This document shows, one piece after another, positions 7,413 through 58,882 of a stretch of DNA of 61,891 bases (positions are counted from its first letter, which is position 1; each line of letters opens with the position of its first letter). The stretch is from positions 1 to 61,891 of IMG/VR virus record IMGVR_UViG_3300044800_000230; one strand, given 5' to 3'. The notes under the pieces were generated by a model. The model was not told the DNA's origin. It did not search any database and worked only from the letters and a program-made list of their open reading frames with translations. The DNA is from a virus. Made by a program: the position numbers and the translations under genes.

Positions 7413-8240
7413 ATGGCTCTAATTTCACAGAAAGAAAAAATAGACATAGGTTTGGTCGGAAGATTGGTATCCGCCACCACGGCGATTACACCTGCCTACG
7501 ACATGGGAACCTATGAGAAAGCCTTGTTTCTCGTCCAGATGGGAACAACGGCTCTCACACTCGGTTCTACATCTTTCAACCTTTTAATGAGACCACTTCA
7601 ATTCGTGAACTCGACAGATGCCTTGGCATTGGGAGTTCCGATTGCGGCATCATCTCAGGCTCAACTTCAACTCGGAGCCTCAAGTTTTGACACTCTCACG
7701 GGAGCATCGATTATCACCTGCGTTCAGGGATCATCTCCGAGAGCTGGTGAAAGTTTTGTCCTCAATGGTCTCACCTTCACCTATTCTGCGGCAGTTGCAG
7801 CATCCACGACCGACGCTTTCACATCGGCTCGACTCATGTCGGCATCATCAAACCTTGCTGGGAATCTTACAAGATTTGCGGCAATCGTTAATGATCCAAC
7901 TTATGGATGCACAGGTTTACTTGCTACGGCTACTGCAACACAGGTCACACTGATAGCAGTTCCACCTGGAGATAAATCTATCACCCTTGCTATTAATGTT
8001 ACGGCTGGGGGTTCATCTGGTTCTATGAGGGCATATCCTACCCAGATGCAGGGTTATATCGAATTGGATACCAGAAATGTCTCAGTTTCCAGTTCATATC
8101 GATATGTGGGTCTGGAAATTCAGCCTGCAAGTTCTTTCGATATCAATGTGGTGGTTCTCAGGGGAGAAGGACGTTATTTCCCTGGTCCATCAACAGGGAT
8201 TCCCGGTCAGGCAGTTGGAAGTTACATTCAAAACATTTAA
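7413..8240 (+). CDS. Structural protein, possible capsid decoration or tail protein
   Basis: 275 residues with a strong AAGGAGGAAA ribosome-binding site. The protein is rich in Ser, Thr, Ala and Val, with few charges in the middle and alternating beta-type sequence (VTLIAVPPGDKSITLAINV). It lies directly after the capsid gene, where decoration or head-stabilising proteins often sit. No family is recognised, and the structural role is inferred from composition and position. A UUCG hairpin lies just past its stop. Confidence 0.6.
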   Translation: MALISQKEKIDIGLVGRLVSATTAITPAYDMGTYEKALFLVQMGTTALTLGSTSFNLLMRPLQFVNSTDALALGVPIAASSQAQLQLGASSFDTLTGASIITCVQGSSPRAGESFVLNGLTFTYSAAVAASTTDAFTSARLMSASSNLAGNLTRFAAIVNDPTYGCTGLLATATATQVTLIAVPPGDKSITLAINVTAGGSSGSMRAYPTQMQGYIELDTRNVSVSSSYRYVGLEIQPASSFDINVVVLRGEGRYFPGPSTGIPGQAVGSYIQNI

Positions 8241-10841: not shown

Positions 10842-11887
10842 AACGATGCACAAGATGTGTGATGCCTGAAACGTGGGCAGGAATTACATTTGATGAGAAT
10901 GGGGTTTGCTCGTTATGCCGTGAACACGAAAACCAAGAGAATATTAATTGGGAAATCAGACAAGAACGTTTATCCAATATCATATCTCGTTATAAAGAAT
11001 ATGCAAAAGAAAACAATGTCAAATATGAAGCGATAGTCGGTATTTCTGGCGGGAAGGATAGTATTTATACTCTTTGGGCAACGGTGAGGAAGTATTGTCT
11101 AAAGGTTTTAGTTGTAACCTTTGATCACGGATTTCATCTTACCTCTGAAGGAGAATGGAATCTATCTCAGATACCGAAGATTCTTGATTGCGATCATATT
11201 AGGTTTTCAATCGGAAACGGTTTAAGAAATGCCCTCTGTAAAAAAGGATGTGAACTTATCGGTGATTTTTGTCTTCATTGCCATCTCGGGGTCGGCACAA
11301 CTGCTGCACGAATCTCAAAGTTGTGGAATGTGCCTTTGCAAATATGGGGTGAACCGACTGCCCTTTATTCAACTACGGGGGATTATAGACTTGATGATCT
11401 TGAGGAGCAGAATCAAGAACATTTTGAGAAAGTATTTGCCGTGGGTACAACCACAAAGACGATAATCCCAGATGGTTATGATGCCATCGATTTGCAACCT
11501 TTGATGTGGCCAGAAGGGAAATTTCCTTTGAAGGCAATCTATCTGGGACATTTTGAATCATGGGATCAGGAAGAACATGCACGGATCATAAAGCAGGAAC
11601 TCGGATGGAGAGATTATCCCAAACAAGAGACTTGGCAATCATGGGATAAAAATGATTGTCCGTTAGAACTTGTGAGGGAAGCACAAAAGAAACTTCGTCG
11701 AGGATTCGGGAAGGCTTCATTTGCCGCCAGTAAAGAAATACGAAGTGGGAAAATTAGCCGTGAAGAAGGAATGAAATTGGTCGAGGAATATGAGAATAAA
11801 AATCTAATTGGGCTTGACGAAATGTGTCAGGAGATGGGGATCGAATCGTTTGATAAACTTAAAACAATTACCAATATGAGGATTTAA
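10838..11887 (+). CDS. N-acetyl sugar amidotransferase (PseA/WbpG/WbuX-like)
   Basis: An ATP-dependent enzyme that adds an amidino/amide nitrogen to an acetamido sugar, using a PP-loop. The start at 10838 has GGAAGGAGG in front. Zinc-type cysteines C4, C7, C24 and C27 lead into the PP-loop SGGKDSIYTLW, followed by LKVLVVTFDHGFH and a second Cys pair (CLHCHLG). All match the N-acetyl sugar amidotransferase family, which sits in O-antigen and flagellin-glycan clusters. The 349-residue length is close to full family length. Confidence 0.88.
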   Translation: MKRCTRCVMPETWAGITFDENGVCSLCREHENQENINWEIRQERLSNIISRYKEYAKENNVKYEAIVGISGGKDSIYTLWATVRKYCLKVLVVTFDHGFHLTSEGEWNLSQIPKILDCDHIRFSIGNGLRNALCKKGCELIGDFCLHCHLGVGTTAARISKLWNVPLQIWGEPTALYSTTGDYRLDDLEEQNQEHFEKVFAVGTTTKTIIPDGYDAIDLQPLMWPEGKFPLKAIYLGHFESWDQEEHARIIKQELGWRDYPKQETWQSWDKNDCPLELVREAQKKLRRGFGKASFAASKEIRSGKISREEGMKLVEEYENKNLIGLDEMCQEMGIESFDKLKTITNMRI

Positions 11888-12096: not shown

Positions 12097-12288
12097 ATGA
12101 CTAAACTCATTCTCGGCACGAAATATAAAGTTTCATTTGAAGATTGTTGCGTGAGGGGATACTTCACATCAATTCTAAAAGAAATTGAAATGAGTGAAGA
12201 CGAAAGTTACCCAACTAAAATGATTTTTGAGAATGGAGTTACATTGGAAGATTGTTGGTGTGGAACATTTGAGGAAATAGATGACTAA
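12097..12288 (+). CDS. Small protein starting with a copy of the next gene's first eight residues
   Basis: 63 residues with AGGAAG upstream. The first eight residues, MTKLILGT, are identical to those of the aldo/keto reductase 184 bases downstream, but five codons carry six silent differences. After that the protein is unrelated (KYKVSFEDCCVRGYFTS, EDCWCGTFEEIDD). It looks like an insertion into the start of the reductase gene that captured the old start codon. It overlaps the reductase start by 8 bases. The function is unknown. Confidence 0.65.
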   Translation: MTKLILGTKYKVSFEDCCVRGYFTSILKEIEMSEDESYPTKMIFENGVTLEDCWCGTFEEIDD

Positions 12289-13024
12289 ATTGATATTAGG
12301 AACGGCACAGTTCGGAAGTGATTACGGAGTAAAACATGATGGGCAACCGTCCGAAAAGGAAATCGAAAAGATTGCCCGTGTGGCTTGGGATGGTGGGATA
12401 AGGACGGTTCACACGAGTTGGCAATACGGTCTTCCAAAGATTTGTGATGCGATATTCGACCAGTTTGAGAAGATTGAAAAGGACAGGGAGTTTCCTCACC
12501 TATTCAAATGGGGGAATGATGGAGTGCTTTCAAGACTTGGTATGAGTGCCTATAACCCAGATGAGATAAAGAATATCGTTGTTGATATGATTGTGCCCGT
12601 AAATGTTCTGGACAGGAGATGGTTGGAATTTAAAAATCCAAAACATAAATTGATTGCCCGTTCAGTATTTCTTCAGGGATTGCTTTTGATGGATCCGGAT
12701 TTAATGCCTGATTGGGTTACAGATTATGGAAAAACTGAAATAGCATTTTTCCAATTTGAATGTTCTCAACGAAGATTGGCATTTTACGAAGCCGCCCTTG
12801 GCTGGGTTCTCGGTTTGGATGAAGTTGATTATGTCATTGTTGGTGTGAACTCAACGAAACAACTTGAGGAGTTATTGGCGGTTGAACCCTTGAAATGGGA
12901 TTATGATTTTTCGATTCAGGATGAGAATGTTCTCGATCCAAGGAGATGGCCAACACTCGATAACCAGTTGAAGAGAACAGTTGAAACCTCGACGGCCATT
13001 GAAGGAGTGAATTTGAAATTATGA
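12281..13024 (+). CDS. Aldo/keto reductase-like protein, shortened
   Basis: 247 residues beginning MTKLILGTAQFGSDYGV, the standard opening of aldo/keto reductases found in nonulosonate clusters. The catalytic Tyr is present (WQYG) and a Lys follows in HLFKWGND. The usual Asp before the Tyr is replaced (VHTSWQYG), and about 45 residues that normally carry the active-site His are missing before GMSAYNPDEI. The C-terminal ALGWVLGLDEVDYVIVGVNS is typical. Either a reduced enzyme or a protein that has lost catalysis; a redox role in sugar synthesis is inferred only from context. Confidence 0.7.
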   Translation: MTKLILGTAQFGSDYGVKHDGQPSEKEIEKIARVAWDGGIRTVHTSWQYGLPKICDAIFDQFEKIEKDREFPHLFKWGNDGVLSRLGMSAYNPDEIKNIVVDMIVPVNVLDRRWLEFKNPKHKLIARSVFLQGLLLMDPDLMPDWVTDYGKTEIAFFQFECSQRRLAFYEAALGWVLGLDEVDYVIVGVNSTKQLEELLAVEPLKWDYDFSIQDENVLDPRRWPTLDNQLKRTVETSTAIEGVNLKL

Positions 13025-16796: not shown

Positions 16797-17299
16797 GAAG
16801 CATGCAGAATGAAGAATGGTTTTGTGGATTCAGCACTGAAACCAAACCGACAGGTTGCCCAATGGGAACGAAGTTCTTTGAATTGGATACCAAATGTACC
16901 TATATCTGGGACCTGATTCAGTGGACTCGTGACCCCACAACCCTCTTCGGGGCAGAGAAACATCCTACGATTAATATTTCAATCTCGGTGACAAGTTGTC
17001 AAAGTTTTATGAGTCCTCTCTGGGTCAAGCCGGGAAGAACACTAATTAATATCCTGACAACTACGCCAGTATCAACCGGAGTGACTTTTACATTGACGGT
17101 TCTTTCGGCAGAATCGACTCTCGGGGTCTTCTTTACCTCGACGGAAGTTTCGGGTTCAGTCGTTAAGATGCTTCCAGTTACGACATTGAATTACGGTGTG
17201 CCGATTGCAGATGGAGGTGTCTATTTCAATGCCGCACTAACAGCGGTGGTTCCGAGTACCAGCCTTGGAACAATAACCATTACTCCCTATACGATGTGA
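16793..17299 (+). CDS. Virion structural protein candidate
   Basis: 168 residues with AGGAGGAAATAAG upstream. It opens with STETKPTGCPMGTKFFELD and a CTYIWDLIQW segment. This opening recurs in small phage structural proteins encoded near capsid genes. The rest is Thr/Ser/Val-rich beta sequence. No enzymatic motif is visible. A head or tail decoration role is inferred. Confidence 0.55.
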   Translation: MRSMQNEEWFCGFSTETKPTGCPMGTKFFELDTKCTYIWDLIQWTRDPTTLFGAEKHPTINISISVTSCQSFMSPLWVKPGRTLINILTTTPVSTGVTFTLTVLSAESTLGVFFTSTEVSGSVVKMLPVTTLNYGVPIADGGVYFNAALTAVVPSTSLGTITITPYTM

Positions 17300-17328
17300 G
17301 GGATGATGAAATAAAAGAAGAAAGGAAA

Positions 17329-19056
17329 ATGAAAATGGCAGATGAAGCCGAAACAAAAGTAACGGAAGATTGTCAGATGCAGAGGGATAAGTATAAGAAA
17401 AAGGACAAGGTGATAATCACTGGTTTTGCAGACTCATGGAAGAAGGCCCCATTCAACGATGAAAGTTTCGAGGTATGGGGAATGAACTCCCTTTTCGAAC
17501 TGATTCCGAGATGGGATCTGTGGTTTGAAATCCATGATGTGAACCTTTTCGAACTGAGGACGAATAAGGAAATTGGATATGGACTTACACGCACGGGGCA
17601 ACCATATCTTGAGGCGCTTGCACAACTGAAATGCAAAGATGGGACGCCATGCCCTGTGATGATGGTCGAGACCTACCCCGATATCCCGAACGGGGTACGT
17701 TATCCATTCGAATTTGCGAGGGATAAATTAGGAAATTATTTTACTAATTCCGTATCTTACATGATTGCTCTCGCTATCTTATGGGGATACAAGGAGATCC
17801 ACATCTTCGGGGTAGATATGGCAACGAATTGTGTGGCTCCTGAAACACGAATTTTGACATCTGATCTTAGATGGATACCAGCCTCCGAGGTTAAAGACGG
17901 AGATGAACTTATTGCTTTCGACGAATATTCCAAGGATGGAGACGGTCATAGTCGAAGATGGAGAAAGACAAAGGTCAAATCTGCAACTAAAATCCAAGGA
18001 CCCTCTTGGGAAACATGCTTTGAGGATGGAACAAAAATGATAACATCTTCCCTGCATGGATGGCTTACTCATGGAGAAAATGAGAACCGATGGAAAACGA
18101 CAGAGGATTTAATGACTCGACATCATCGGTCGGACAGACCGACCAGAGCATTAAAACTTCTCCCGACATGGGAAACGGATAATTCACGGGAGGCAGGATA
18201 TCTTGCGGCAGCTTTTGATGGTGAGGGTCATTTAGTTCAAGGGGAAACTCGTAATTGTGGAACCCATACTTTGAGAATCGGATTCTCCCAACATGAAAAT
18301 GCAATGAGCCAAATGGTTGAGGATTATTTAGGAAAATATAAATTGGAATATAGTGTAAACAGAAATAATGGAACAAGAAAATATCAGATAAATGGTGGAC
18401 GGCCTGAATTATTACGATTTTTAGGACAGATTCGTCCTGTCCGATTACTAAGTAAATTTTCGCCCGAGATTTTAGGACAATTGACAAGTAGGGAAAATGT
18501 GGCAGTTACGGAATCAAGATTCATCGGTGATCATTCATTAATCGCAATTCAGACGGATACTAAAACATTTATTGCCGAAGGATTCGCAAATCATAATACC
18601 GAGTACGGAACTCAACGTCCCTCGTGTGAATATTACGTCGGAATTGCCGTGGGAATGGGGATCAAGGTCTATATCCCACCGGAGGCCGACCTTCTGAAGG
18701 CTGAATTCATGTATGGATTTGAGGGGGAGAAGAAACTTTCCTTTATCTCGAAGATGGAATCCCTGATCACGAGTATGGATCAGAGGAGAGCAATTGCAAT
18801 GCAGAATCAGGCAATGTCCCAACGGTCGTTAGACCAACTCATCGGCAGGATGGAGCAAATGAAACTTCAGAAAGAATGGCCGGAGTTAGCATCCGATGGG
18901 GGGAAGAAGAAACTTGATGAAGAGATTGCCAAATATAATATCGAGTGGTCGAACCATCTTCAGGCCCTTGACCTTGCAAGGAAACAGGCGGACCAATATG
19001 TCGGGGCGGTCGAGGGATTAAGAGAGGCAATAAAGATTCGGTTGCTCTTTAAATAA
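17329..19056 (+). CDS. Intein-split protein with Rossmann-like N-part and coiled-coil C-part
   Basis: The start is placed at 17329 (AAAGGAAA upstream); a GTG at 17296 overlapping the previous stop is possible. Removing the 256-residue intein (17830-18597) leaves about 319 residues. The first ~165 read KVIITGFADSWKKAPF, FEVWGMNSL, RWDLWFEIHD and YKEIHIFGVDMA. After the intein come EYGTQRPSCEYYVGIAVG and KVYIPPEADLLK. This resembles a Rossmann-type sugar-transfer or DUF115/Maf-like domain (tentative). The end is a long coiled coil. A Maf-like role would fit transfer of the CMP-sugar made by the neighbours, but this is inference. Confidence 0.65.
   Translation: MKMADEAETKVTEDCQMQRDKYKKKDKVIITGFADSWKKAPFNDESFEVWGMNSLFELIPRWDLWFEIHDVNLFELRTNKEIGYGLTRTGQPYLEALAQLKCKDGTPCPVMMVETYPDIPNGVRYPFEFARDKLGNYFTNSVSYMIALAILWGYKEIHIFGVDMATNCVAPETRILTSDLRWIPASEVKDGDELIAFDEYSKDGDGHSRRWRKTKVKSATKIQGPSWETCFEDGTKMITSSLHGWLTHGENENRWKTTEDLMTRHHRSDRPTRALKLLPTWETDNSREAGYLAAAFDGEGHLVQGETRNCGTHTLRIGFSQHENAMSQMVEDYLGKYKLEYSVNRNNGTRKYQINGGRPELLRFLGQIRPVRLLSKFSPEILGQLTSRENVAVTESRFIGDHSLIAIQTDTKTFIAEGFANHNTEYGTQRPSCEYYVGIAVGMGIKVYIPPEADLLKAEFMYGFEGEKKLSFISKMESLITSMDQRRAIAMQNQAMSQRSLDQLIGRMEQMKLQKEWPELASDGGKKKLDEEIAKYNIEWSNHLQALDLARKQADQYVGAVEGLREAIKIRLLFK
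17830..18597 (+). mobile_element. Intein with LAGLIDADG-type endonuclease
   Basis: It begins at Cys (CVAPETRILTSDLRWIPASE, block A) and ends ...TFIAEGFANHN before Thr+1 of the C-extein. Block B is SSLHGWL with the conserved His. A LAGLIDADG-like helix reads EAGYLAAAFDGEGHL, with a second, weaker half near LRFLGQIRP. The C-terminal block has the HN pair required for Asn cyclisation. All splice residues are in place, so splicing should be functional. The insertion site, inside the GVDMATN/TEYG strand-loop, is the conserved core of the host protein, as is usual for inteins. Confidence 0.93.
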
Positions 19057-42256: not shown

Positions 42257-42279
42257 CTTTCCCCCCTTGGCCAATGGGA

Positions 42280-42378
42280 TTAAGAACATTTAGCAAGATA
42301 CATCATTAACCATATTAAAAATGCAATTGGAATCCAACTTAATAAAAAAGCTATCCCCATCCTGTCATGTTTATTCAT
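42280..42378 (-). CDS. Tiny membrane protein
   Basis: 32 residues: GIAFLLSWIPIAFLIWLMMY is a membrane helix with a basic front. It is preceded by AAGAGATG only. It follows structured element E1 at 42397-42508. Confidence 0.5.
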   Translation of the reverse strand: MNKHDRMGIAFLLSWIPIAFLIWLMMYLAKCS

Positions 42379-42396: not shown

Positions 42397-42508
42397 GACG
42401 GTCAATGGGCAGGATTAATGTAAGTATGTATCCTGTGTGTGCTCAATCTAACGAGGTGAATTAGTCCCCGACTTACATTCACAGCTTATTAAGCCACCAT
42501 TGGCCGCC
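42397..42508 (-). ncRNA. Structured element E1 with predicted pseudoknot
   Basis: The outer stem pairs 42397-42408 with 42497-42508 (10 of 12 Watson-Crick; a G-U appears when read from the leftward strand). Inside, CAGGAT at 42410-42415 pairs with ATCCTG at 42430-42435. The loop sequence AATGTAAGT at 42417-42425 pairs perfectly with ACTTACATT at 42471-42479, giving an H-type pseudoknot. The element starts right after the stop of the upstream gene and ends before the 32-residue ORF. It has no coding content. Structure is inferred from base pairing only. Confidence 0.55.
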
Positions 42509-42664
42509 TCACTTTTTCTTATTTCGTAAAAAAGCCATTAACTTTTTAAATGCTTTTTCGGGAGTTCTATAACAAGCCCATGGTCCGTGAGGTTGAACTG
42601 AAGCATGCCAACTTCCACTTGCTGTTCTAATAATTTCAATTTTATTTACTTGTGATACTTTCAC
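42509..42664 (-). CDS. Small protein of unknown function
   Basis: 51 residues from a GTG behind TTTAGGAGGGAAA. IIRTASGSWHASVQPHGPWA and YRTPEKAFKKLMAFLRNKKK suggest a small beta-alpha fold resembling short DUF domains of phage early regions. A longer in-frame version would run through structured element E2, which is unlikely. Confidence 0.6.
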   Translation of the reverse strand: MKVSQVNKIEIIRTASGSWHASVQPHGPWACYRTPEKAFKKLMAFLRNKKK

Positions 42665-42677
42665 TTTCCCTCCTAAA

Positions 42678-42776
42678 GGCGACCAATGGGCAGGTCTTCT
42701 ACCTGAGTCACGTGTTGCAATAAGACATTGGCTCGACACGGAATACTTTCCCCGCAATGCTCCACCATTGGCCGCC
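42678..42776 (-). ncRNA. Structured element E2, same outer stem as E1
   Basis: 42678-42689 pairs with 42765-42776 over 12 base pairs (one G-U on the leftward strand, which would be A-C on the other). Inside are the hairpin CAGGT-CTTCT-ACCTG at 42691-42705 and a stem CGTGT/ACACG (42711-42715/42736-42740). The loop of that stem holds CATTG, able to pair with CAATG at 42755-42759. The terminal 19 bases next to the upstream gene are nearly identical to those of E1. It lies directly before the ribosome-binding site of the 42664 gene. Confidence 0.55.
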
Positions 42777-42783
42777 TCACTCT

Positions 42784-42969
42784 TCATCTCTCTACCTTAT
42801 TAAAAATGCAATTGGAATCCAAAGCAACTTCAAATTGAAAGTCAGATAATTTCTTCGCACAGGTTCTCAACGCATTCTTAAGGGGCAACCAATCTTTCTC
42901 TTCAATCCAATCGTCCATGTTATTAGTCAGATCCAGCAATTCTTCTTTTAATTCCTTTGCTCCGTTCAT
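42784..42969 (-). CDS. Small helical protein
   Basis: 61 residues with GTGAGGGAGAG upstream. KELKEELLDLTNNMDDWIEE and LKNALRTCAKKLSDFQFEVA are helices. The unusual end is NCIFNKVER. Structured element E3 lies just upstream. Unknown. Confidence 0.55.
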   Translation of the reverse strand: MNGAKELKEELLDLTNNMDDWIEEKDWLPLKNALRTCAKKLSDFQFEVALDSNCIFNKVER

Positions 42970-42984
42970 CTCTCCCTCACTTTA

Positions 42985-43095
42985 GGGGTCGGCAAACAAG
43001 CCGTCAGATTATACGTCCACGGGTTATCCCACAAGATAGAAGATAATCTTGCCGACTGACAGAAGTAAACTTTCCTTTCATTGCCTACCGACCCC
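42985..43095 (-). ncRNA. Structured element E3
   Basis: A perfect 8-bp outer stem GGGGTCGG (42985-42992) with CCGACCCC (43088-43095). Inside, GTCAG plus ATTAT (43003-43012) pairs with ATAAT (43043-43047) and CTGAC (43056-43060), and a GGG-TTAT-CCC hairpin sits in the loop. A competing 8-bp pairing GTCGGCAA (42988-42995) with TTGCCGAC (43049-43056) could give two alternative folds. It shares a CGAC..AC/GAA..CTTTCC core with E2 and E4. It sits just before the ribosome-binding site of the 42969 gene. Confidence 0.5.
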
Positions 43096-43111
43096 ACTAT
43101 TTTACACTCTT

Positions 43112-43810
43112 TTATTTTCCCGTTGCCACCATTTTATCTACTCGGAATACCTTGATCCCAGGAATATTGGTTTCACCCTTTAATACCCGAACGATACCCC
43201 CTATCTTCTTTAAATTTGGAATAAGATATTGCCTTGGGATTAGGGATTCTTTTTCTATTTCAAAGTCCCAACTCTCCCTCATCGCAGCACCCATCAACTT
43301 GACTTTTGGTGTTTCGGGGGGGGCGATTATAACTTCGATAGGTTTAATGGCTTCTTCAACGGCCTCTTCTATAAGGGCATCAGCTTCTTCAAGGGCTCCT
43401 GCCTCGGCAAGTGCGGTAGCCTGTGCAATCTTTTCTTCTTCCTCCTTGTGACGGCGTTCCATCTCGGCCTTAATCGCCTCCTGACGAAGTTTCTCTTCCT
43501 CTGCCCTACGAAGAAGATCCTGTGCCACTTTGTAATTTTTCACCTGCCCATTCAGGTATTTCTCTGCCACTATCAGGGGAGCCTCGATAAGTGCCTTCTG
43601 ATTCAGGGCTTCCTTATGGGCAGCATTAGCTTTGGTAATTATCGGATCAAATGTTTCAGAAATCTTCTTTCTAAGAGCTTTTATGGTAAGAAAAAAATCA
43701 TTGGCCTTTACCAATGTTCCCTGATCCCTCACCACAATCATTTTTGCCTGATCGGGGATAGGCATCACTTCTTGTCTTACCACTTCAACTTGACTGATTG
43801 CTTCGTTCAT
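43112..43810 (-). CDS. Coiled-coil protein of the recombination cassette
   Basis: 232 residues. AISQVEVVRQEVMPIPDQAK, the long Glu/Lys/Ala helix in the middle (QEAIKAEMERRHKEEEEK) and KLMGAAMRESWDFEIEKESL at the C-terminus define a protein commonly found beside phage RecB-like exonucleases. The role is unknown; DNA-end handling is inferred. Its start overlaps the HNH gene by 26 bases. Confidence 0.65.
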   Translation of the reverse strand: MNEAISQVEVVRQEVMPIPDQAKMIVVRDQGTLVKANDFFLTIKALRKKISETFDPIITKANAAHKEALNQKALIEAPLIVAEKYLNGQVKNYKVAQDLLRRAEEEKLRQEAIKAEMERRHKEEEEKIAQATALAEAGALEEADALIEEAVEEAIKPIEVIIAPPETPKVKLMGAAMRESWDFEIEKESLIPRQYLIPNLKKIGGIVRVLKGETNIPGIKVFRVDKMVATGK

Positions 43811-44204
43811 GGGGCCTCCTTTGACATTCTTTGCAATTTGCCTGTAATTTATCCCAATGCGAATTGCATCGGGTAAATTCAGAATGTGATTTTAACAATT
43901 TGCATGTACAACAAAGCTTATGAGTATTAGGATTGCCTCCAGCATCTACAATCCTTTTTCTTGCATGAAGAATCATATGATAGACATTATTCTCACAAAT
44001 CACTATTGATAGATCATCATCGATAGTTTTAACATGATGAACAACTACTTTTAAGGGAAGGGGGTATCCTAATACCTTTTCTGCTACAAGTCTTGAATTA
44101 AAAATATATCCATCACAGTTTGCTTTTGGATGATCTAAACATTTAGTCATTAATCTCCCATCCTTGTGAATCCTTGACCCGTTCCAGTTCTCTCTTCTAT
44201 GCAT
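43785..44204 (-). CDS. HNH homing-type endonuclease
   Basis: 139 residues. ENWNGSRIHKDGRLMTKC, VVVHHVKTIDDDLSIVICEN and VYHMILHARKRIVDAGG are the HNH core. A C-terminal zinc ribbon (CCTCKLLKSHSEFTRC, CKECQRRP) follows. It lies between exonuclease and coiled-coil genes with overlaps at both ends, a free-standing mobile gene placed in the cassette. Confidence 0.85.
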   Translation of the reverse strand: MHRRENWNGSRIHKDGRLMTKCLDHPKANCDGYIFNSRLVAEKVLGYPLPLKVVVHHVKTIDDDLSIVICENNVYHMILHARKRIVDAGGNPNTHKLCCTCKLLKSHSEFTRCNSHWDKLQANCKECQRRPHERSNQSS

Positions 44205-44769
44205 TTTCCCTCCATCTCGCTACGGTTAAAGCTGCCAAAAACACCGGCAGGAGCAATTTTGGTCTTTCAATCGGCTCCAATTTATAAGTCCCGTCATCAT
44301 GAAGATAAAGATCGAATACCTTCTTGATGGGAATATTATTGACTCGGCACAACTCCCAATAAGCAGCATCCTGTAGTTCGTCTATCTTAGCTGAGGCTCC
44401 GGTCTTTAAATCAATAAGTACTAAACATCCGTTTAGGTATCCAATGCGATCAATCCTGCCAGCATAGAAATAGATTGGATGGTAGAGCTTATGTTCAATA
44501 TACCCAGGGTGGGCTACCGATCCCGTATCTTTCCGAAATTTCACATAGGCATCAAGATAGGGTCTTATCCTCTCATCAACCGTTGACCAATCTAATTCAT
44601 CATGGTCAAGATATTCAGTGGCAAGATGGATTAAACGCCCTCTCTCTAAATACCAAGGATCAACCTTCCATCTGTTATCGAGTATGGAAAGGCATTGAGT
44701 CACCGAGATAAGTTTCCGGTCTCCTAAAGTATAGGTATGAGTGGATTCATCAAGGTTGAGCATTGCCAT
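44197..44769 (-). CDS. RecB/Cas4-like exonuclease
   Basis: 190 residues of a PD-(D/E)XK nuclease. The metal motif reads YAGRIDRIGYLNGCLVLIDL followed by KTG, with QDAAYWELC as the downstream conserved helix. ISVTQCLSILDNRWKVDPWY at the N-terminus fits this phage exonuclease type. It probably resects DNA for the adjacent annealing-type protein. Confidence 0.85.
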   Translation of the reverse strand: MAMLNLDESTHTYTLGDRKLISVTQCLSILDNRWKVDPWYLERGRLIHLATEYLDHDELDWSTVDERIRPYLDAYVKFRKDTGSVAHPGYIEHKLYHPIYFYAGRIDRIGYLNGCLVLIDLKTGASAKIDELQDAAYWELCRVNNIPIKKVFDLYLHDDGTYKLEPIERPKLLLPVFLAALTVARWRENA

Positions 44770-45625
44770 CGGATAGCTCCAGTTTCACCTTTTCGCAGAT
44801 TTCATCGTAGAGATCACGGGTGATATCTGTCGTCGATTCAAAATCATATTCTCGATAGAGCCATTCTTTGATCTGATCATCGGTAGCCCCGGTCTCCTTG
44901 GCGATTGCATAGAATCGTTTTCGCTGAGGTTCGGAGATGATTTCACCCTTTGACTTATCGGCGGTCGGTTGAGACTTGCCATTCTTCTTCTGAGGCTCCT
45001 TCTTCTGGGGCTCCTTTAGTGGGGATTTGCCATTCGGTCCGACTTCCATCCCCTCTGGAAGATCTTCAATGTCTTGATCGAAGATATCTGAGGCCGCTGT
45101 GATGGTGAGCGTCATATCTATGAGTGCCCTTTTTTTCGCCATCTTGAGGATTGTGTTGGCAACGTCAACCGGATTCATTCTGACTTGCTTCTGTTGATAG
45201 GGAGCTTTTTCTCCTTTCTTCCAGACAGTTCGTTTCCTATCCGTAGGAGCCTCATTGAACTCTTCTTCACAGACTGGTTTTCTCCACTTATATTTTTCTT
45301 CATTGGAAGAACATTCTCCGATACCGACTCCAAGTAAAGTTCCTAAAGCCTGGGAAAATCCTTTGACGGCGATCCTATATCGTATTTCATCCTCGGTTGA
45401 AAGATCCGTGATATATTCCGATGGATCGGCCCCGATGTGAAATGTTGAAAGAAGTTTTTCGGCCCCAGGTTTATAAAGGGTAGGTTTAGGTGTTCCTGGG
45501 ATGATGCCGTAATGGTGATCTTTTTTCATCACGGCTTCCATGACTTCTTGAATAAGTTGCACTTGAGCTTTAATCTGCATTGCCGTCAGTGGTTTCTTAC
45601 CATACATTTCAATTGCATTTTCCAT
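44750..45625 (-). CDS. Probable ssDNA-annealing/binding protein of the recombination cassette
   Basis: 291 residues. MQIKAQVQLIQEVMEAVMKK, HYGIIPGTPKPTLYKPGAEK and VDVANTILKMAKKRALIDMT are conserved blocks of a phage family that pairs with RecB-like exonucleases. A Pro/Lys-rich linker leads to a C-terminal helical module (ISEPQRKRFYAIAKETGATD) shared by several phage annealing proteins. The exact superfamily (RecT, ERF or other) cannot be set by eye. It overlaps the exonuclease by 20 bases. Confidence 0.6.
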   Translation of the reverse strand: MENAIEMYGKKPLTAMQIKAQVQLIQEVMEAVMKKDHHYGIIPGTPKPTLYKPGAEKLLSTFHIGADPSEYITDLSTEDEIRYRIAVKGFSQALGTLLGVGIGECSSNEEKYKWRKPVCEEEFNEAPTDRKRTVWKKGEKAPYQQKQVRMNPVDVANTILKMAKKRALIDMTLTITAASDIFDQDIEDLPEGMEVGPNGKSPLKEPQKKEPQKKNGKSQPTADKSKGEIISEPQRKRFYAIAKETGATDDQIKEWLYREYDFESTTDITRDLYDEICEKVKLELSDGNAQP

Positions 45626-45737
45626 CTTCTTCCTCCTCGTCTAATTCTTTTTTTCTATCTTCTTCTGATTCCATTTCCCATTCCTCGCCATGCCAAAACA
45701 AATGTCGTTTAAGAGTGCTAAACGGGATAATTAGCAT
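45609..45737 (-). CDS. Small acidic-tailed protein before the annealing gene
   Basis: 42 residues. The first half is basic/aromatic (IIPFSTLKRHLFWHGEEWEM), the second half very acidic (SEEDRKKELDEEEEDGK). It overlaps the next start by 17 bases and carries that gene's GAGGAGG. A GGA-rich site lies upstream. Unknown. Confidence 0.5.
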   Translation of the reverse strand: MLIIPFSTLKRHLFWHGEEWEMESEEDRKKELDEEEEDGKCN

Positions 45738-45813
45738 ATCGTAGAAATCCTTTTAACGGAGTAGGTCACATAAGTTCATAATTCCCTCCGTGCAACCCTC
45801 ACAAATTCCCCCA

Positions 45814-46206
45814 TTATTCCTTTTCTTGTGGTTTTTCCTTTGTGACAGACTGGATAATATCAATCACATCCTTCTTGATTTCATTCTTGAAATCTTTACC
45901 AGTTTTGATAGCCGATTCAATGTTTTTAGGCGTAATTTGTTGGGCAACCATCATTCCAATAATGGTATTTCTTGAGGGAGTTATTATGGCCAGAAAAAGG
46001 AAGATTCCGAAAAGCCATTTTGCCCATCTAAATTTATTAACTACATTCAATAAATCCTCATCATCATCCATCGTTCCCAATACTTTGAAAAACACTAAAA
46101 TAATCAATCCTAATCCCAAAATAATTACACCCCCCGTAAAAGTTATAATCAAGTTTTCAATAAAACCTAATAAATAAATCAACCACGGACTAATTATTGG
46201 TTCCAT
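45814..46206 (-). CDS. Membrane protein of the early operon
   Basis: 130 residues with AAGGGAGACAAAT upstream. Two or three transmembrane helices (NLIITFTGGVIILGLGLIIL, WAKWLFGIFLFLAIITP) precede a charged tail (KDFKNEIKKDVIDIIQSV). Unknown; superinfection or host-membrane effects are typical for such early membrane proteins (inference). Confidence 0.6.
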   Translation of the reverse strand: MEPIISPWLIYLLGFIENLIITFTGGVIILGLGLIILVFFKVLGTMDDDEDLLNVVNKFRWAKWLFGIFLFLAIITPSRNTIIGMMVAQQITPKNIESAIKTGKDFKNEIKKDVIDIIQSVTKEKPQEKE

Positions 46207-46339
46207 ATTTGTCTCCCTTCTTTATGATACTCACAAATTCCCCTATGACATATAGGGCTAAAATAACCATTATCCCGGCCCCTGCCACCTTAAACCATTG
46301 AGCCCAAGTCAAAATATCAGATAGATGCCGTTCCATCAT
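46190..46339 (-). CDS. Small single-helix membrane protein
   Basis: 48-49 residues behind AAGGAGGCTCCCA, inside the end of the previous gene. ILTWAQWFKVAGAGIMVILA and ALYVIGEFVSIIKK form a membrane helix. It overlaps both neighbours. Unknown. Confidence 0.55.
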   Translation of the reverse strand: MMERHLSDILTWAQWFKVAGAGIMVILALYVIGEFVSIIKKGDKYGTNN

Positions 46340-46613
46340 TGGGAGCCTCCTTCTCAAATCCTTCTACCTGTGTAGCAAGTTTTTCTACTTCTTCTTCAGT
46401 TAGGTATCCTCTTACATCCCCATCTGCAACAGGATTGTCATAATGTAATGTTCCATTCTTCCTAACAGCCAATTCATATAATCCTTTATCTCCACCATAA
46501 GAATATTGAAATTGAATTACGGATACCTCAAAACCATTTTTAAAGGTCATTATTGCCTGTACTCCTCCCATTCCAGAAGGATGAGGATTAAATTTCAGTT
46601 CTTGAAATTTCAT
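46317..46613 (-). CDS. Conserved-type small phage protein
   Basis: 98 residues with GGGAGGCTCCCA upstream. FQELKFNPHPSGMGGVQAIM, FEVSVIQFQYSYGGDKGLYE and VRGYLTEEEVEKLATQVEGF have the look of a widespread small phage protein, with a beta domain and a C-terminal helix. The function is unknown. Confidence 0.6.
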   Translation of the reverse strand: MKFQELKFNPHPSGMGGVQAIMTFKNGFEVSVIQFQYSYGGDKGLYELAVRKNGTLHYDNPVADGDVRGYLTEEEVEKLATQVEGFEKEAPNDGTASI

Positions 46614-46807
46614 TGGGAGCCTCCCTTTTTATTTTTATAGAACCTTTCAAACTCGTACCATACTCCATTAACTTTAGCTTCCTGTTTGGTATGGGAAATG
46701 GATTGGATAACACCGTCTTCAAGTCTGCCCGGAGAAATCCAAATCAGGACATCTTCTCCACGGAGAAAAGTATCAGGGTTGATACGATTTACGGTGAATG
46801 ATTTCAT
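46610..46807 (-). CDS. Small SH3-like protein
   Basis: 65 residues. TFLRGEDVLIWISPGRLEDG, VIQSISHTKQEAKVNGVWYE and FERFYKNKKGGSQ resemble an SH3-like beta barrel. It overlaps both neighbours by 4 bases. Unknown. Confidence 0.55.
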   Translation of the reverse strand: MKSFTVNRINPDTFLRGEDVLIWISPGRLEDGVIQSISHTKQEAKVNGVWYEFERFYKNKKGGSQ

Positions 46808-46989
46808 TTTCTTTTATCCTCTTGTTCGACTCCTTTCCCCTCGACTATTTTCCTCATCACACTCATGATGTCTATCTGTTCCTCTGTCAGAATAATCTGG
46901 AAAATTGTCTCCTCTTTGGACCGATTAAAAAATGTGTTCTCTTTTCCATTTGTGACTTCTTTGGAAATCCAAATTTTATATTTAGTCAT
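46804..46989 (-). CDS. Small protein of unknown function
   Basis: 61 residues from the ATG behind AGGAGACAAGAGAA. TKYKIWISKEVTNGKENTFF, then a helix (LTEEQIDIMSVMRKIVEGKG). The start is coupled by ATGA to the upstream gene. Confidence 0.55.
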   Translation of the reverse strand: MTKYKIWISKEVTNGKENTFFNRSKEETIFQIILTEEQIDIMSVMRKIVEGKGVEQEDKRK

Positions 46990-47159
46990 TTCTCTTGTCT
47001 CCTTTCTGTGATTTCCTCCTCCCAAGCATCTTTGTGTATCTTCCAAGACCATTCGGCCTCCTTCGCTGAGGCTTCTAATGCGACAATGCGAATATAATTA
47101 CCGCATGAACAGTAAAGTAATAATTCACCATTGAACAAAGTTGCTCGAAGTAAGTGCAT
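46986..47159 (-). CDS. Small protein of unknown function
   Basis: 57 residues, start coupled to the upstream stop by TAATG. LLRATLFNGELLLYCSCGNY, then ALEASAKEAEWSWKIHKDAW. A short beta hairpin with a CxC pair and a C-terminal helix. Confidence 0.55.
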   Translation of the reverse strand: MHLLRATLFNGELLLYCSCGNYIRIVALEASAKEAEWSWKIHKDAWEEEITERRQEK

Positions 47160-47500
47160 TAGCTCTCCGTGGGTTCTGCCTTGGCAATGGCTTCACTTTT
47201 TAAGAATGGTTTTCCATTGACATATTCAATTTGAGCGGTTTGAGCAATCACCTTTAGATATTCAAAATTACCCTGTAAAGCCTCTACTATAATCCGGCCT
47301 TGAATCCTTGCCCATTGTTTATGCTCTTCTAAAAGATCTGGACAAGAGGCGATCAAGTGGACGTTGGCCTCTCTTTGTTCTTCCCCCACATCAACGGCCC
47401 ACAAATCACAAATGGCCTTACCATCTAATGTCGATATTTCATAAGTTGTTCCATAATACCGTAGTTTATTAAGTTTCCATGGCCCTGATGTATATTTCAT
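47159..47500 (-). CDS. Conserved-type phage protein (SGPWK family)
   Basis: 113 residues behind GGGAGAAGG. YTSGPWKLNKLRYYGTTYEI, DGKAICDLWAVDVGEEQREA and NVHLIASCPDLLEEHKQWAR follow a common pattern of small phage proteins (S-G-P-W-K ... E-A-N-A-x-L-I-A-A-x-P-D-L-L). The function is unknown. Structured element E4 lies directly upstream. Confidence 0.65.
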   Translation of the reverse strand: MKYTSGPWKLNKLRYYGTTYEISTLDGKAICDLWAVDVGEEQREANVHLIASCPDLLEEHKQWARIQGRIIVEALQGNFEYLKVIAQTAQIEYVNGKPFLKSEAIAKAEPTES

Positions 47501-47518
47501 TTTCCTTCTCCCATAATA

Positions 47519-47755
47519 GATGCCGAAGAATTCTGTCAGATTTGCTTCTAACTTGGGCTCACATCTTGTCTTGCGACACGTCGGAAAGTTTCCTCAAGAG
47601 CTTACGCCAATGAGGTTCAAGTGCCGGGACTGCCCTATCCCGGAGTGCCCTTCCGAACAGATGCTCTTTTCAGCTTGAACCTGGATTATCCAGGGTGGCT
47701 GAAACCATCTCTCATTCAAAATGTCTTCGCTTATCATATAAGATTCCTCGGCATC
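47519..47755 (-). ncRNA. Structured element E4 in a 355-base gene-free spacer
   Basis: The outer stem joins 47519-47531 to 47743-47755: thirteen positions with a single non-Watson-Crick pair that is G-U on the leftward strand. Inside are a CCGGGA/TCCCGG hairpin (47624-47643), CCTGGA-TTA-TCCAGG (47680-47694) and TTTCAGC/GCTGAAA (47668-47674/47698-47704). AGGTTCAAG/CTTGAACCT (47613-47621/47674-47682) crosses the last stem. A 14-base direct repeat (47711-47724, 47769-47782) lies partly outside. It ends 18 bases before the start of the 47500 gene. No credible gene was found in 47501-47855. Confidence 0.55.
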
Positions 47756-47855
47756 CTTTATCGTATCCCTCATTCAAAATGTGTGCGCCTCTGACAAATG
47801 CCCAGCACAACGCCAGCAGGATCAGATAAGTGATTAATGCAATTAGTAAAAGTAT

Positions 47856-48254
47856 TTAATCCGCCCGTTCAATCCTTTCCTTCATGTAGCCCTTCTCGTC
47901 AGTATCGGGAAGATCGGATTCTTTTCCCAATGTGACCGCCTTTCCTCCGCTGCTAATTTCCATCGTCATTCCATCTTTTTTTAGATCGGTATCCATTTTT
48001 TCGATTTGGTCAAAAAGTTTACCTTGCAAGGCACTCCATTCAAATGTCACAGAGTCCTTTATTTTTTCTTTTGTAAAAGAAATTGAGACCTCACAGATAT
48101 TTTTTCCTTTGACCACTCCGATCTTCGCACCGAAAGAGATTGTGAGTGGATCTTCGCCTGCATTTGCCCATGCCTGCTCCAAATCTTCAGTATAATATTT
48201 CAACATTCCTTGAATCTTGTTCGGGATGATTGACAAAGCTCCTTTGATGCTCAT
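47856..48254 (-). CDS. Protein of unknown function in the early operon
   Basis: 132 residues with AAGGAGGGAAC upstream. MLKYYTEDLEQAWANAGEDP, ISFGAKIGVVKGKNICEVSI and FDQIEKMDTDLKKDGMTMEI describe a beta-rich middle between helices. It resembles phage proteins encoded near single-strand-binding or replication genes, but no family is assigned. Confidence 0.6.
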   Translation of the reverse strand: MSIKGALSIIPNKIQGMLKYYTEDLEQAWANAGEDPLTISFGAKIGVVKGKNICEVSISFTKEKIKDSVTFEWSALQGKLFDQIEKMDTDLKKDGMTMEISSGGKAVTLGKESDLPDTDEKGYMKERIERAD

Positions 48255-48268
48255 GTTCCCTCCTTTCC

Positions 48269-48511
48269 TTATTTAAGTAATTTAACGTCTCTTCTTCTTG
48301 AAAACTTAGCTACCTCTGATTCCATCATTCGTTTCGTTGGAGCCTTTACAGAGTGAATCCATCTTTTGCGCTGACGGTATTCTTTTTGATTTTTCGGTTT
48401 AATCACTTTCACAAACCAGCACATCAAAATAGCTTCCCACATTGGATGTCCTTGTTGGGGCTTATCCATGAAATAACCATTTTCGAGTTCAATAAATCTT
48501 TTAATAACCAC
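48269..48511 (-). CDS. Small basic protein
   Basis: 80 residues with GAAAGGAGGAGTAAG upstream. FIELENGYFMDKPQQGHPMW, then a strongly basic half (QKEYRQRKRWIHSVKAPTKR). Possibly nucleic-acid binding. E6 lies directly upstream. Confidence 0.55.
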   Translation of the reverse strand: MVIKRFIELENGYFMDKPQQGHPMWEAILMCWFVKVIKPKNQKEYRQRKRWIHSVKAPTKRMMESEVAKFSRRRDVKLLK

Positions 48512-48528
48512 TTCTTACTCCTCCTTTC

Positions 48529-48587
48529 TGGGGTAGGTTGGAGAGGATTCCAAACTGGAGATGAGTAGAGCCAGTGCTTTCGCCCCA
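48529..48587 (-). ncRNA. Structured element E6 (short)
   Basis: TGGGG (48529-48533) pairs with CCCCA (48583-48587). Two hairpins lie inside: TTGGA/TCCAA near 48538-48553 and ACTGG/CCAGT near 48554-48575. It fills the spacer between the stop at 48592 and the ribosome-binding site of the 48511 gene. It is the smallest of the set and the least certain. Confidence 0.4.
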
Positions 48588-48591
48588 CCCG

Positions 48592-48732
48592 CTAATCTTT
48601 TGACTGTAGTTCACGCAAGATCTCAATTAAGATATTGGCGATAAGTTGCAAAAGTAGGGTTTCCCTGCCAATCTCACAGATAGTAATTTCATTAAAAGCC
48701 CTTTCCAACTTTTCAAGTGAATTGATAATCAT
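48592..48732 (-). CDS. Small protein, paralog of the 41349 gene
   Basis: 46 residues if started at ATG 48732; the frame is open to 48780 (62 residues). AAAAAAGGAGGTGATG precedes, but the ATG sits only two bases past GGAGG, so the ideal start would be the next codon, ATT. NSLEKLERAF and ILIEILRELQSKD match the paralog at 41349-41504. Unknown function. Confidence 0.6.
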   Translation of the reverse strand: MIINSLEKLERAFNEITICEIGRETLLLQLIANILIEILRELQSKD

Positions 48733-48816
48733 CACCTCCTTTTTTAGAAACTTGTCCTGTGGTTTTGGATCCCTTTTCATCCCCTGTTCCGTCGGTTTCC
48801 CGATCTGACAGGTTAA

Positions 48817-48939
48817 TGTCAGGTCGCCTTTTAGGTCTACGGGAATTCCCGTTGACCACTAATTTAGCTGTCGCCACCCCCATATCCAATTCCCGTAGGA
48901 CTGCTTTCGCAGGGACTTAGGTTCGGTCAACACCTGACA
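48817..48939 (-). ncRNA. Structured element E5 with nested pseudoknot
   Basis: Three perfect pairings interlock: TGTCAGGT 48817-48824 with ACCTGACA 48932-48939 (outer), CTACGGGAATT 48837-48847 with AATTCCCGTAG 48888-48898, and GTTGACC 48851-48857 (inside the loop of the second) with GGTCAAC 48925-48931. The second and third form an H-type pseudoknot. The third ends exactly where the outer stem begins, allowing coaxial stacking. A CTGC-TTTC-GCAG hairpin sits at 48901-48912. An alternative local hairpin CTGACA/TGTCAG (48805-48822) competes with the outer stem. No ORF is present. Confidence 0.6.
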
Positions 48940-48956
48940 AATGGTTTTGGGATTCC

Positions 48957-57305: not shown

Positions 57306-57569
57306 ATGCAAAGAGATTCAGAGAAATCAAGGAAAAGTTGGGAATTAGGGAATGAAATTATTGTTAAATATTTGGAGGGGAAAATTGAGGGGACCGATAA
57401 AATCAGGGTTGCCCAAACGGCCTGTAATATCCATGCCCGAATGGTGGCAAGCGAGGCCAACATGGAAACGAATAGGCTGGTATTGGGCAAGATGATTTAT
57501 TCGGATGAAAAAGAATTGAAAAAATATATTCAGAGTTCCATGCCCCAGATGATGATTGAGAAGAAGTGA
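57306..57569 (+). CDS. Small protein after a T-rich spacer
   Basis: 87 residues behind AAAAGGAGGTTATT. SEKSRKSWELGNEIIVKYLE, TDKIRVAQTACNIHARMVAS and EANMETNRLVLGKMIYSDEK are helical and DNA-binding-like. Unknown; resembles short phage early proteins. Confidence 0.6.
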   Translation: MQRDSEKSRKSWELGNEIIVKYLEGKIEGTDKIRVAQTACNIHARMVASEANMETNRLVLGKMIYSDEKELKKYIQSSMPQMMIEKK

Positions 57570-57684
57570 GTTGTTTTGGGTTGGATTAGGTTGTTTTTTA
57601 TTATGTTGCTTTCCTTTGGATTACTTTTGTTTAGGTTACGTTCGATTTAATTTAATTGTATTCATTTTAAAAAGGAGGTCTATC

Positions 57685-58233
57685 ATGTATGAAATCGAAA
57701 GAGAATTAGAATCATTGTGTCCATATTTACAGAATAAACCGAAACAGAGGGAATTCATTCTTGATAAAGATGGAAAATGGGTAGAGAAACCAGAACCGAC
57801 CATCAAGAGAAATCGGGTTGATCCCGAAGAGGCTGGCTATCATGACGAAAAAGGATGGTATATCCCATCAAGGCAGATTTGGGCATCCATGAGAAATTCA
57901 TCTGGTCAGGTTCAACTTGGGAAGAGTAAATTAAACAGGCTTTCTAAGTTTTATATTGCTACGGTTCGGGTTGAACCAGCACAAATTTACATCCACAAGA
58001 AAAAACCCGATGCGATTTACAATGACCCCTGTTTTAAAGAAAGCAAAAAGGGTGGGGAAATGGTTTATAATCCTCGGCCTATGTTCAATTCTTGGAAGGC
58101 AAAAATCAAAATCGTTGTTTTGGAAGATTCGATTCCAGAAGAGAAGATTGAGGAATGTTTGATTTATGCCGGACTCTATAAGGGCATTGGATCAAGAGCA
58201 CCGGAATTTGGGAGGTTTAGGATTGTGAAATGA
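57685..58233 (+). CDS. Tandem-duplicated protein, copy 1
   Basis: 182 residues behind AAAAAGGAGGTCTATC. Lys/Pro-rich N-terminus (YLQNKPKQREFILDKDGKWV), YHDEKGWYIPSRQIWASMRN in the middle, and LIYAGLYKGIGSRAPEFGRF at the end. The last motif, a glycine-rich turn, is conserved in a family of phage proteins near replication genes. The function is unknown. Identical to copy 2. Confidence 0.75.
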   Translation: MYEIERELESLCPYLQNKPKQREFILDKDGKWVEKPEPTIKRNRVDPEEAGYHDEKGWYIPSRQIWASMRNSSGQVQLGKSKLNRLSKFYIATVRVEPAQIYIHKKKPDAIYNDPCFKESKKGGEMVYNPRPMFNSWKAKIKIVVLEDSIPEEKIEECLIYAGLYKGIGSRAPEFGRFRIVK

Positions 58234-58333
58234 CTTTGTTTGGATTTTATTATGTTGCTTTCCTTTGGATTACTTTTGTTTAGGTTACGTTCGATTTAAT
58301 TTAATTGTATTCATTTTAAAAAGGAGGTCTATC

Positions 58334-58882
58334 ATGTATGAAATCGAAAGAGAATTAGAATCATTGTGTCCATATTTACAGAATAAACCGAAACAGAGGG
58401 AATTCATTCTTGATAAAGATGGAAAATGGGTAGAGAAACCAGAACCGACCATCAAGAGAAATCGGGTTGATCCCGAAGAGGCTGGCTATCATGACGAAAA
58501 AGGATGGTATATCCCATCAAGGCAGATTTGGGCATCCATGAGAAATTCATCTGGTCAGGTTCAACTTGGGAAGAGTAAATTAAACAGGCTTTCTAAGTTT
58601 TATATTGCTACGGTTCGGGTTGAACCAGCACAAATTTACATCCACAAGAAAAAACCCGATGCGATTTACAATGACCCCTGTTTTAAAGAAAGCAAAAAGG
58701 GTGGGGAAATGGTTTATAATCCTCGGCCTATGTTCAATTCTTGGAAGGCAAAAATCAAAATCGTTGTTTTGGAAGATTCGATTCCAGAAGAGAAGATTGA
58801 GGAATGTTTGATTTATGCCGGACTCTATAAGGGCATTGGATCAAGAGCACCGGAATTTGGGAGGTTTAGGATTGTGAAATGA
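58334..58882 (+). CDS. Tandem-duplicated protein, copy 2
   Basis: 182 residues, identical to the product at 57685-58233, with the same leader and ribosome-binding site. Together they would double the dosage. Confidence 0.75.
   Translation: MYEIERELESLCPYLQNKPKQREFILDKDGKWVEKPEPTIKRNRVDPEEAGYHDEKGWYIPSRQIWASMRNSSGQVQLGKSKLNRLSKFYIATVRVEPAQIYIHKKKPDAIYNDPCFKESKKGGEMVYNPRPMFNSWKAKIKIVVLEDSIPEEKIEECLIYAGLYKGIGSRAPEFGRFRIVK

Follow-up and report, generated by a model that had tools for sequence, protein, structure and literature searches.

Folded spacers in a leftward operon

The subject of this work is a set of folded spacers, E1 to E6, between the small genes of the leftward operon of an IMG/VR virus record (IMGVR_UViG_3300044800_000230), which was analysed over its 61.9 kb and is called the window here. 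E1 and E2 are members of a previously uncatalogued family of folded tRNA-like RNA, to which E3 is assigned by its anatomy alone, and each of the three precedes a small open reading frame (ORF; Table 1). The family consensus is 5'-P1(any sequence)GG-U-GGCGAAAGCY ... CAGGN ... NCCUGC-CC(P1')-3'. P1 is the outer stem, of nearly any sequence with an inner GG/CC; the second hairpin, U-GGCGAAAGCY or an equivalent mini-hairpin, is followed by a variable interior, and the third stem (P3), CAGGN..NCCUGC, abuts P1'.

In E1, P1 has 12 bp with one C.A mismatch and one G.U, followed by U-GGCUUAAUAAGC; the interior is pseudoknot-capable, and P3 is CAGGAU/AUCCUG. E2 has the same P1, at 14 bp, and a P3 of CAGGU/ACCUG; GGCGGCCAATGGTGG is common to E1 and E2, and none of 300 shuffles was as good. 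E3 is built from a P1 of GGGGUCGG/CCGACCCC, and UAGG replaces UGG.

When inverted repeats adjacent to a Shine-Dalgarno (SD) sequence were ranked over both strands of the window, the top three were E4 (score, 36.6), E3 (34.4) and E2 (33.6), all on the leftward strand; the next best scored 28.2. Folding was compared with dinucleotide shuffles (Table 1). The first-pass annotation had described six structured spacers, and unusual folding was confirmed for E1 to E5; E6 is indistinguishable from chance, as 58 of 200 shuffles fold at least equally well. Its wider proposal, that the six form one RNA family, is supported for E1 and E2, and by anatomy for E3, and is not supported for the remainder, E5 being another RNA, E4 lacking a relative among the sequences compared and E6 lying at chance level. 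Likewise, the description as a modular RNA that is made from the leftward transcript and goes with small genes suits E1 and E2 (and the anatomy of E3) and not all six together, and the supposed regularity of seven per operon is not borne out, since only E1, E2 and E3 resemble one family in the window. The limits of E2 were slightly off, and E5 may extend beyond its first-reported ends; Table 1 gives both as revised.

Table 1. Positions of the elements, neighbouring small ORFs and the tRNA-like gene (z, folding z-score on the leftward strand; R1, covariance model described in the text)
Feature	Position	Strand	z	Remarks
Orphan right arm CCATTGGCC	42269-42277	-		directly before the SD of the MDEKINI gene; complements the E1 left arm
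32-aa ORF	42280..42378	-		membrane-like; downstream of E1
E1	42397..42508	-	-2.9	family member; precedes the 32-aa gene; 48 bits with R1, whose training set includes E1
51-aa ORF	42509..42664	-		GTG start, SD AGGAGG; downstream of E2
E2	42676..42778	-	-2.4	family member; precedes the 51-aa gene; 22.3 bits with R1, outside its training set
61-aa ORF	42784..42969	-		downstream of E3
E3	42985..43095	-	-3.9	probable member by anatomy only; precedes the 61-aa gene
E4	47519..47755	-	-4.6	strong folding; family membership not assigned
E6	48529..48587	-	-0.5	weak structure, at chance level
E5, with possible outer stem	48779..48954	-	-4.5	different structured RNA
L197 tRNA-like gene	L197 1502-1584 (L003 contig, 8071-8152)			between a stop codon and the SD of the next gene

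Relatives in other metagenomic phages

Among cultured phages we found no close relative of the window and no usable match for the elements. The window terminase is about 53% identical to those of Firmicutes phages, which does not settle the host. Related metagenomic phages were reached via two proteins of the window, encoded at 44750-45625 (same operon) and 43112-43810. The arms of the window elements, GGYCAATGG-TGG ... TGC-CCATTGRYY, recur in elements of phages L004 and L049; the arm pattern led to L063, L068 and L072, and a structural scan led to L006 and L007, with other arms, and to L084, with two copies. The decisive scan used an arm-blind pattern, GGTGGCGAAAGC ... CTGCCC, and returned 58 stretches. 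Ten matches had a stem of 7-14 bp outside the pattern; these stems vary between phages, and an SD or a purine-rich start region comes next. In the scan that followed, most remaining candidates had stem scores of 2-4. A 6-bp sequence present in five contigs was not accepted, as there is no gene start behind it.

A covariance model of 15 sequences (R1) found members beyond its training set, namely E2, L004c, L006, L063, L072, L113 and the second L142 copy. In a dedicated scan for other GNRA versions of the loop, GAAA was the only one present among accepted members, and scans for the second arm type and for the E1 interior sequence gave only L006 and L084/L103. Altogether, 22 further members were found in 17 other metagenomic phages. 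No family of Rfam release 15 was matched by the elements at gathering or permissive thresholds, and the literature searched describes no such family, which is not proof of absence. Six pattern matches in bacterial genomes were judged not real (the stem stops and no SD lies behind), and R1 found none across 399 genomes of one phylum, under strict filters and without a positive control.

Two features of the surrounding gene order were seen repeatedly. In L049, L068, L072 and L142 the elements lie up to about 1 kb downstream of a tyrosine-integrase-like gene. In several phages a coiled-coil-like protein of 225-290 residues is encoded upstream of the element cluster (L004, 10095 region; L068, 3418; L084, 9761; window, 43112-43810); the window copy has no Pfam match.

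Covariation and strand bias of the outer stem

P1 pairing is kept in 99.3% of cells in 21 aligned members, some of which were accepted because P1 pairs. All five variable pairs occur as three to five standard pair types. Changes on both sides of a pair number 47, against 14.0 in shuffles, and the signal is lost when the partner is slid. Over 13 different P1 cores, an arm pairs with its own partner at 4.77 of 5 positions and with a foreign one at 2.27. P1 is 7-16 bp long, with its arms 47-95 nt apart. Together with the relatives in 17 other phages, the strand bias described below and the lack of an Rfam match, this covariation supports the suggestion of a new family for E1 and E2.

CAGG is found in 17 of 25 interiors, and the next pair of P3 is kept (A-U, U-A, G-C or G-U) in 11 of 13. 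Read from the alignment, two pairings are possible in E1 and L084b: one between the loop CGGGG and the CCUCG on its immediate 3' side, the other between GUAAGU and ACUUAY of the P3 loop. The second is kept despite divergence of the rest of the P3 loop.

The mismatches of P1 were compared between strands. On the sense strand, 18 are G.U and two A.C (20 and two if the tRNA-like gene L197 is included). The G.U pairs would become A.C on the opposite strand, so the form under selection is the one in the transcript of the gene downstream. The single internal G-U described earlier in the outer stem of E2 is real, and the one described in E4 also appears when that stem is read as GAUGCCGAGGAAU/AUUCUUCGGCAUC.

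These data bear on two other explanations. The elements might be DNA-level operators or promoters with inverted repeats, similar to the ESAS or stoperators of mycobacteriophages. ESAS are 17-bp imperfect repeats of cluster K mycobacteriophages, with short spacers and putative promoters, for which their authors found little support for RNA hairpins (PMC3203893). Like the elements, they are multi-copy inverted repeats that precede the starts of some of the phage genes, and each phage group has its own arms (PMC3203893, PMC11373665). The elements differ in their spacer of 47-95 nt and do not consist of 17-bp repeats, and their covarying pairing and the preference for G.U over A.C on one strand contradict a DNA operator, which we regard as very improbable. 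The second explanation, that unrelated spacers fold by chance and share no common element, does hold for E6 and for a core that had been proposed for E2, E3 and E4. It is contradicted for E1 and E2, since homologs with compensatory P1 changes exist in 17 other phages and the model finds members on which it was not trained; as a general account it is hardly credible.

Placement of the elements before small genes

In all 22 elements measured, P1' ends 10-29 nt before a start codon, and the median length of the genes downstream is 58.5 codons. Most SD-like stretches lie at -2 to +11 nt from the stem, and L004c showed none. The distance from the preceding stop is loose (0-145 nt), and for some elements no stop was found. 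The tight distance to the start and the loose distance to the preceding stop indicate that the element belongs with the following start. SD openness was 0.63 beside native elements and 0.51 beside shuffled ones. Given that the SD is somewhat more open beside the native elements, simple hiding of the SD is not indicated. The elements combine what is expected of a cis-acting leader RNA: a covarying structure that lies on the same strand as a start codon and precedes it at a fixed distance.

The orphan right arm in Table 1 may be what is left of a recombination between elements by which the 32-aa gene was inserted. A gene with a start similar to that of the MDEKINI gene follows a complete element in L068 and L072.

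Separate evolution of the outer stem and the interior

Within a genome, P1 is shared in seven of nine pairs of copies, both exceptions involving E3, and the interiors of such copies are no more alike than shuffled sequence. Conversely, the seven interior pairs that beat every shuffle are all between phages, and P1 differs in six of them. The strongest, E1 and L084b, with near-identical interiors, reached 43 points against a null maximum of 14. Either interiors have been swapped at the conserved UGGC/CCUGC boundaries, or P1 has been homogenised in each genome. A genome-specific stem with exchangeable interiors would be an unusual mode of RNA evolution.

Homogeneous arms in each genome, a variable centre and one copy per small gene are also what a gene-cassette recombination site such as the integron attC would give, acting as folded single-stranded DNA. 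The array-like layout, the P1 shared within genomes, the interiors exchanged between phages and the orphan right arm fit such a site, which like the elements has inverted arms and a variable centre and lies between small genes. Phages are known to carry integron attC sites (PMC9892861), and attC-resembling sequences occur in the same small-gene region of L084. On the other hand, RYYYAAC/GTTRRRY boxes are absent from the element ends as read from the sequence, and a crude attC scan gave none at the elements; the inner GG-UGGC and CCUGC-CC are strongly conserved, and the mismatch bias is of the RNA type. The fixed distance to the start and loose distance to the stop are the reverse of what a gene-plus-attC cassette shows, the elements being coupled to the following start and not to the preceding gene. 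Identity with integron attC was therefore rejected, and a site of this general kind is improbable.

The attC-like sequences of L084 (IMGVR_UViG_3300020171_000077) lie at 11214-11263, 11411-11478 and 12250-12302 and read, for example, ATCTAAC...CGGCTTGATTGCCTTGTTAGGC; they were recognised by eye and not confirmed by the crude scan. They separate small genes in a phage that also carries two family elements.

Likeness to class II tRNAs

When the element model was run on whole phage records, it picked a tRNA-like gene in the L003 phage (L197, Table 1). This gene scores 35.4 bits with the Rfam tRNA model, with an odd, 6-nt anticodon loop, and a second model, R2, scores it as high as L142b, an element outside the training set; by score it would thus count as a family member. 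As a control for tRNA likeness, the tRNA genes of two bacterial genomes were searched. In 18 class II tRNA regions searched without filters, the best model match was the tRNA itself in eight; these eight matches had both ends within about one base and the right strand, and one reads GGUGGCGAAAUUGGUAGACGC. Under default filters, no match fell on the tRNA in thirty loci built around the best-scoring tRNAs, most of which are class I. A first whole-genome run of R1 gave no tRNA match with only 150 candidates scored per genome, and was superseded by the direct test on tRNA loci.

From end to end, the order of acceptor, U8, D-hairpin and T-stem in the elements can be aligned with that of tRNAs. These results support a resemblance of the element ends to a class II tRNA of the Leu type in which the D-arm is cut down to a mini-hairpin and the anticodon arm is missing or replaced. 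Membership of the elements among tRNAs is not supported, and their descent from tRNA-Leu is plausible. Put-like antitermination and ribozyme activity had been suggested earlier as roles; nothing was found that points to either, and the class II tRNA likeness is the new lead.

Spacers outside the family and other features of the window

The core that the first-pass annotation saw in E2, E3 and E4 is at chance level, since 127-171 of 300 shuffles attain the pairwise scores, and E4 has no relative among the related-phage loci compared. E5 represents a second structured RNA conserved in these phages, outside the family of E1 and E2. It has long stretches in common with L003 5736-5945 and L119 6285-6412 (nhmmer E value for L119, 0.006), and the core shared with L119 is CUAAGUCC..GAAAG..ACGGG..AACCUGU..GAUC.GGAAAC.GACGG..CAGGGG. 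A possible outermost stem, AAUCCC/GGGGAU, lies just beyond the limits first reported. E5 has no Rfam match, and L119 carries both an E5 relative and a member of the main family.

Elsewhere in the window, the tandem ORFs 57556-58233 and 58265-58882 have the same product, about 200 residues long (MYEIERELESLCPYLQ...), with no apparent difference over the shared length. A 586-aa ORF at 17296-19056 has an apparent intein-like insert (CVAPETRILTSD...EGFANHN).

Proposed function and comparison with known systems

Given the covarying P1, the second hairpin, P3, the selection for pairing on the sense strand and the fixed place before a start, a cis-acting leader is the best-supported class of explanation, within which binding, cleavage and regulation would be conceivable modes. 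With moderate confidence, we read E1 to E3 as copies of one leader RNA of phage transcripts, tRNA-like and acting in cis. The element probably controls or insulates expression of the following, mostly small, gene. A compact domain directly 5' of the SD would sit at the mRNA exit of the 30S subunit, beside the 30S platform, and action on the following gene would be post-transcriptional. One option is that a factor binds the element by its tRNA-like features or by P1. Another is a cut by RNase P 5' of P1, which would give the mRNA of the small gene a 5' end that is both structured and protected; that RNase P cleavage is the specific step seems doubtful.

Several observations weigh against a tRNA-like leader. 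Neither ARAGORN nor the Rfam tRNA model (RF00005) at its gathering cut-off calls any element, and only L197 passes. The elements do not have the 7-bp acceptor, anticodon arm and CCA of a tRNA, as P1 is 7-16 bp and the interiors vary. E3 was missed by both models, R1 and R2. The P1 statistics are inflated, because P1 pairing was the ground on which some members were accepted. In addition, homologous small genes occur with and without an element (L004 and L063; L072 and the window).

A possible though rather unlikely alternative is a protein- or ligand-binding leader unrelated to tRNA. A factor of the phage or the host would recognise P1 together with the UGG/UGC junction and set the translation of the gene that comes next, and P1 would co-evolve with a phage-specific factor. 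It would account for a P1 that is shared in most within-genome pairs and differs between phages, and for the tight placement before the SD. It would leave the exact-end model match to class II tRNAs as a coincidence of fold, and the interiors are too variable for a small-molecule aptamer. Returning to the tRNA-like leader, its history can be sketched only tentatively, and the full version is unlikely to hold in every part: a module derived from tRNA-Leu, minus the anticodon arm, would have spread as a small-gene leader in many phages. Its 'barcode' stem would be specific to the genome and alike in all copies of one phage, its interiors would pass from phage to phage, and each phage would use its own stem to gate or process the mRNAs of its small accessory genes.

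Phage early regions are rich in tiny genes without assigned function; a recurring RNA module before them would define a regulon and offer a way to learn when these genes are used. The family is new as a structured RNA, and the cis-acting tRNA-like leader as a kind is known; we know of no tRNA-like structure that serves as a multi-copy leader in phage operons.

The elements share with class II tRNA (tRNA-Leu type, RF00005) a P1 in the place of the acceptor, a U at position 8, GGCGAAA in the place of the D-arm, a third stem that abuts the first without a linker, and a GAAUCC(U)GC that resembles the 3' half of the T-arm. They differ from it in the mini D-arm, the lack of an anticodon arm and of CCA, a P1 of up to 16 bp and the lack of a score with the tRNA model. 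Another parallel is the translational operator of Escherichia coli thrS, a cis-acting tRNA-like domain just 5' of the SD, which mimics the anticodon arm and binds ThrRS. The elements likewise place a tRNA-like domain in cis just 5' of the SD; they keep the acceptor/D/T half of the tRNA, whereas the thrS operator mimics the anticodon arm.

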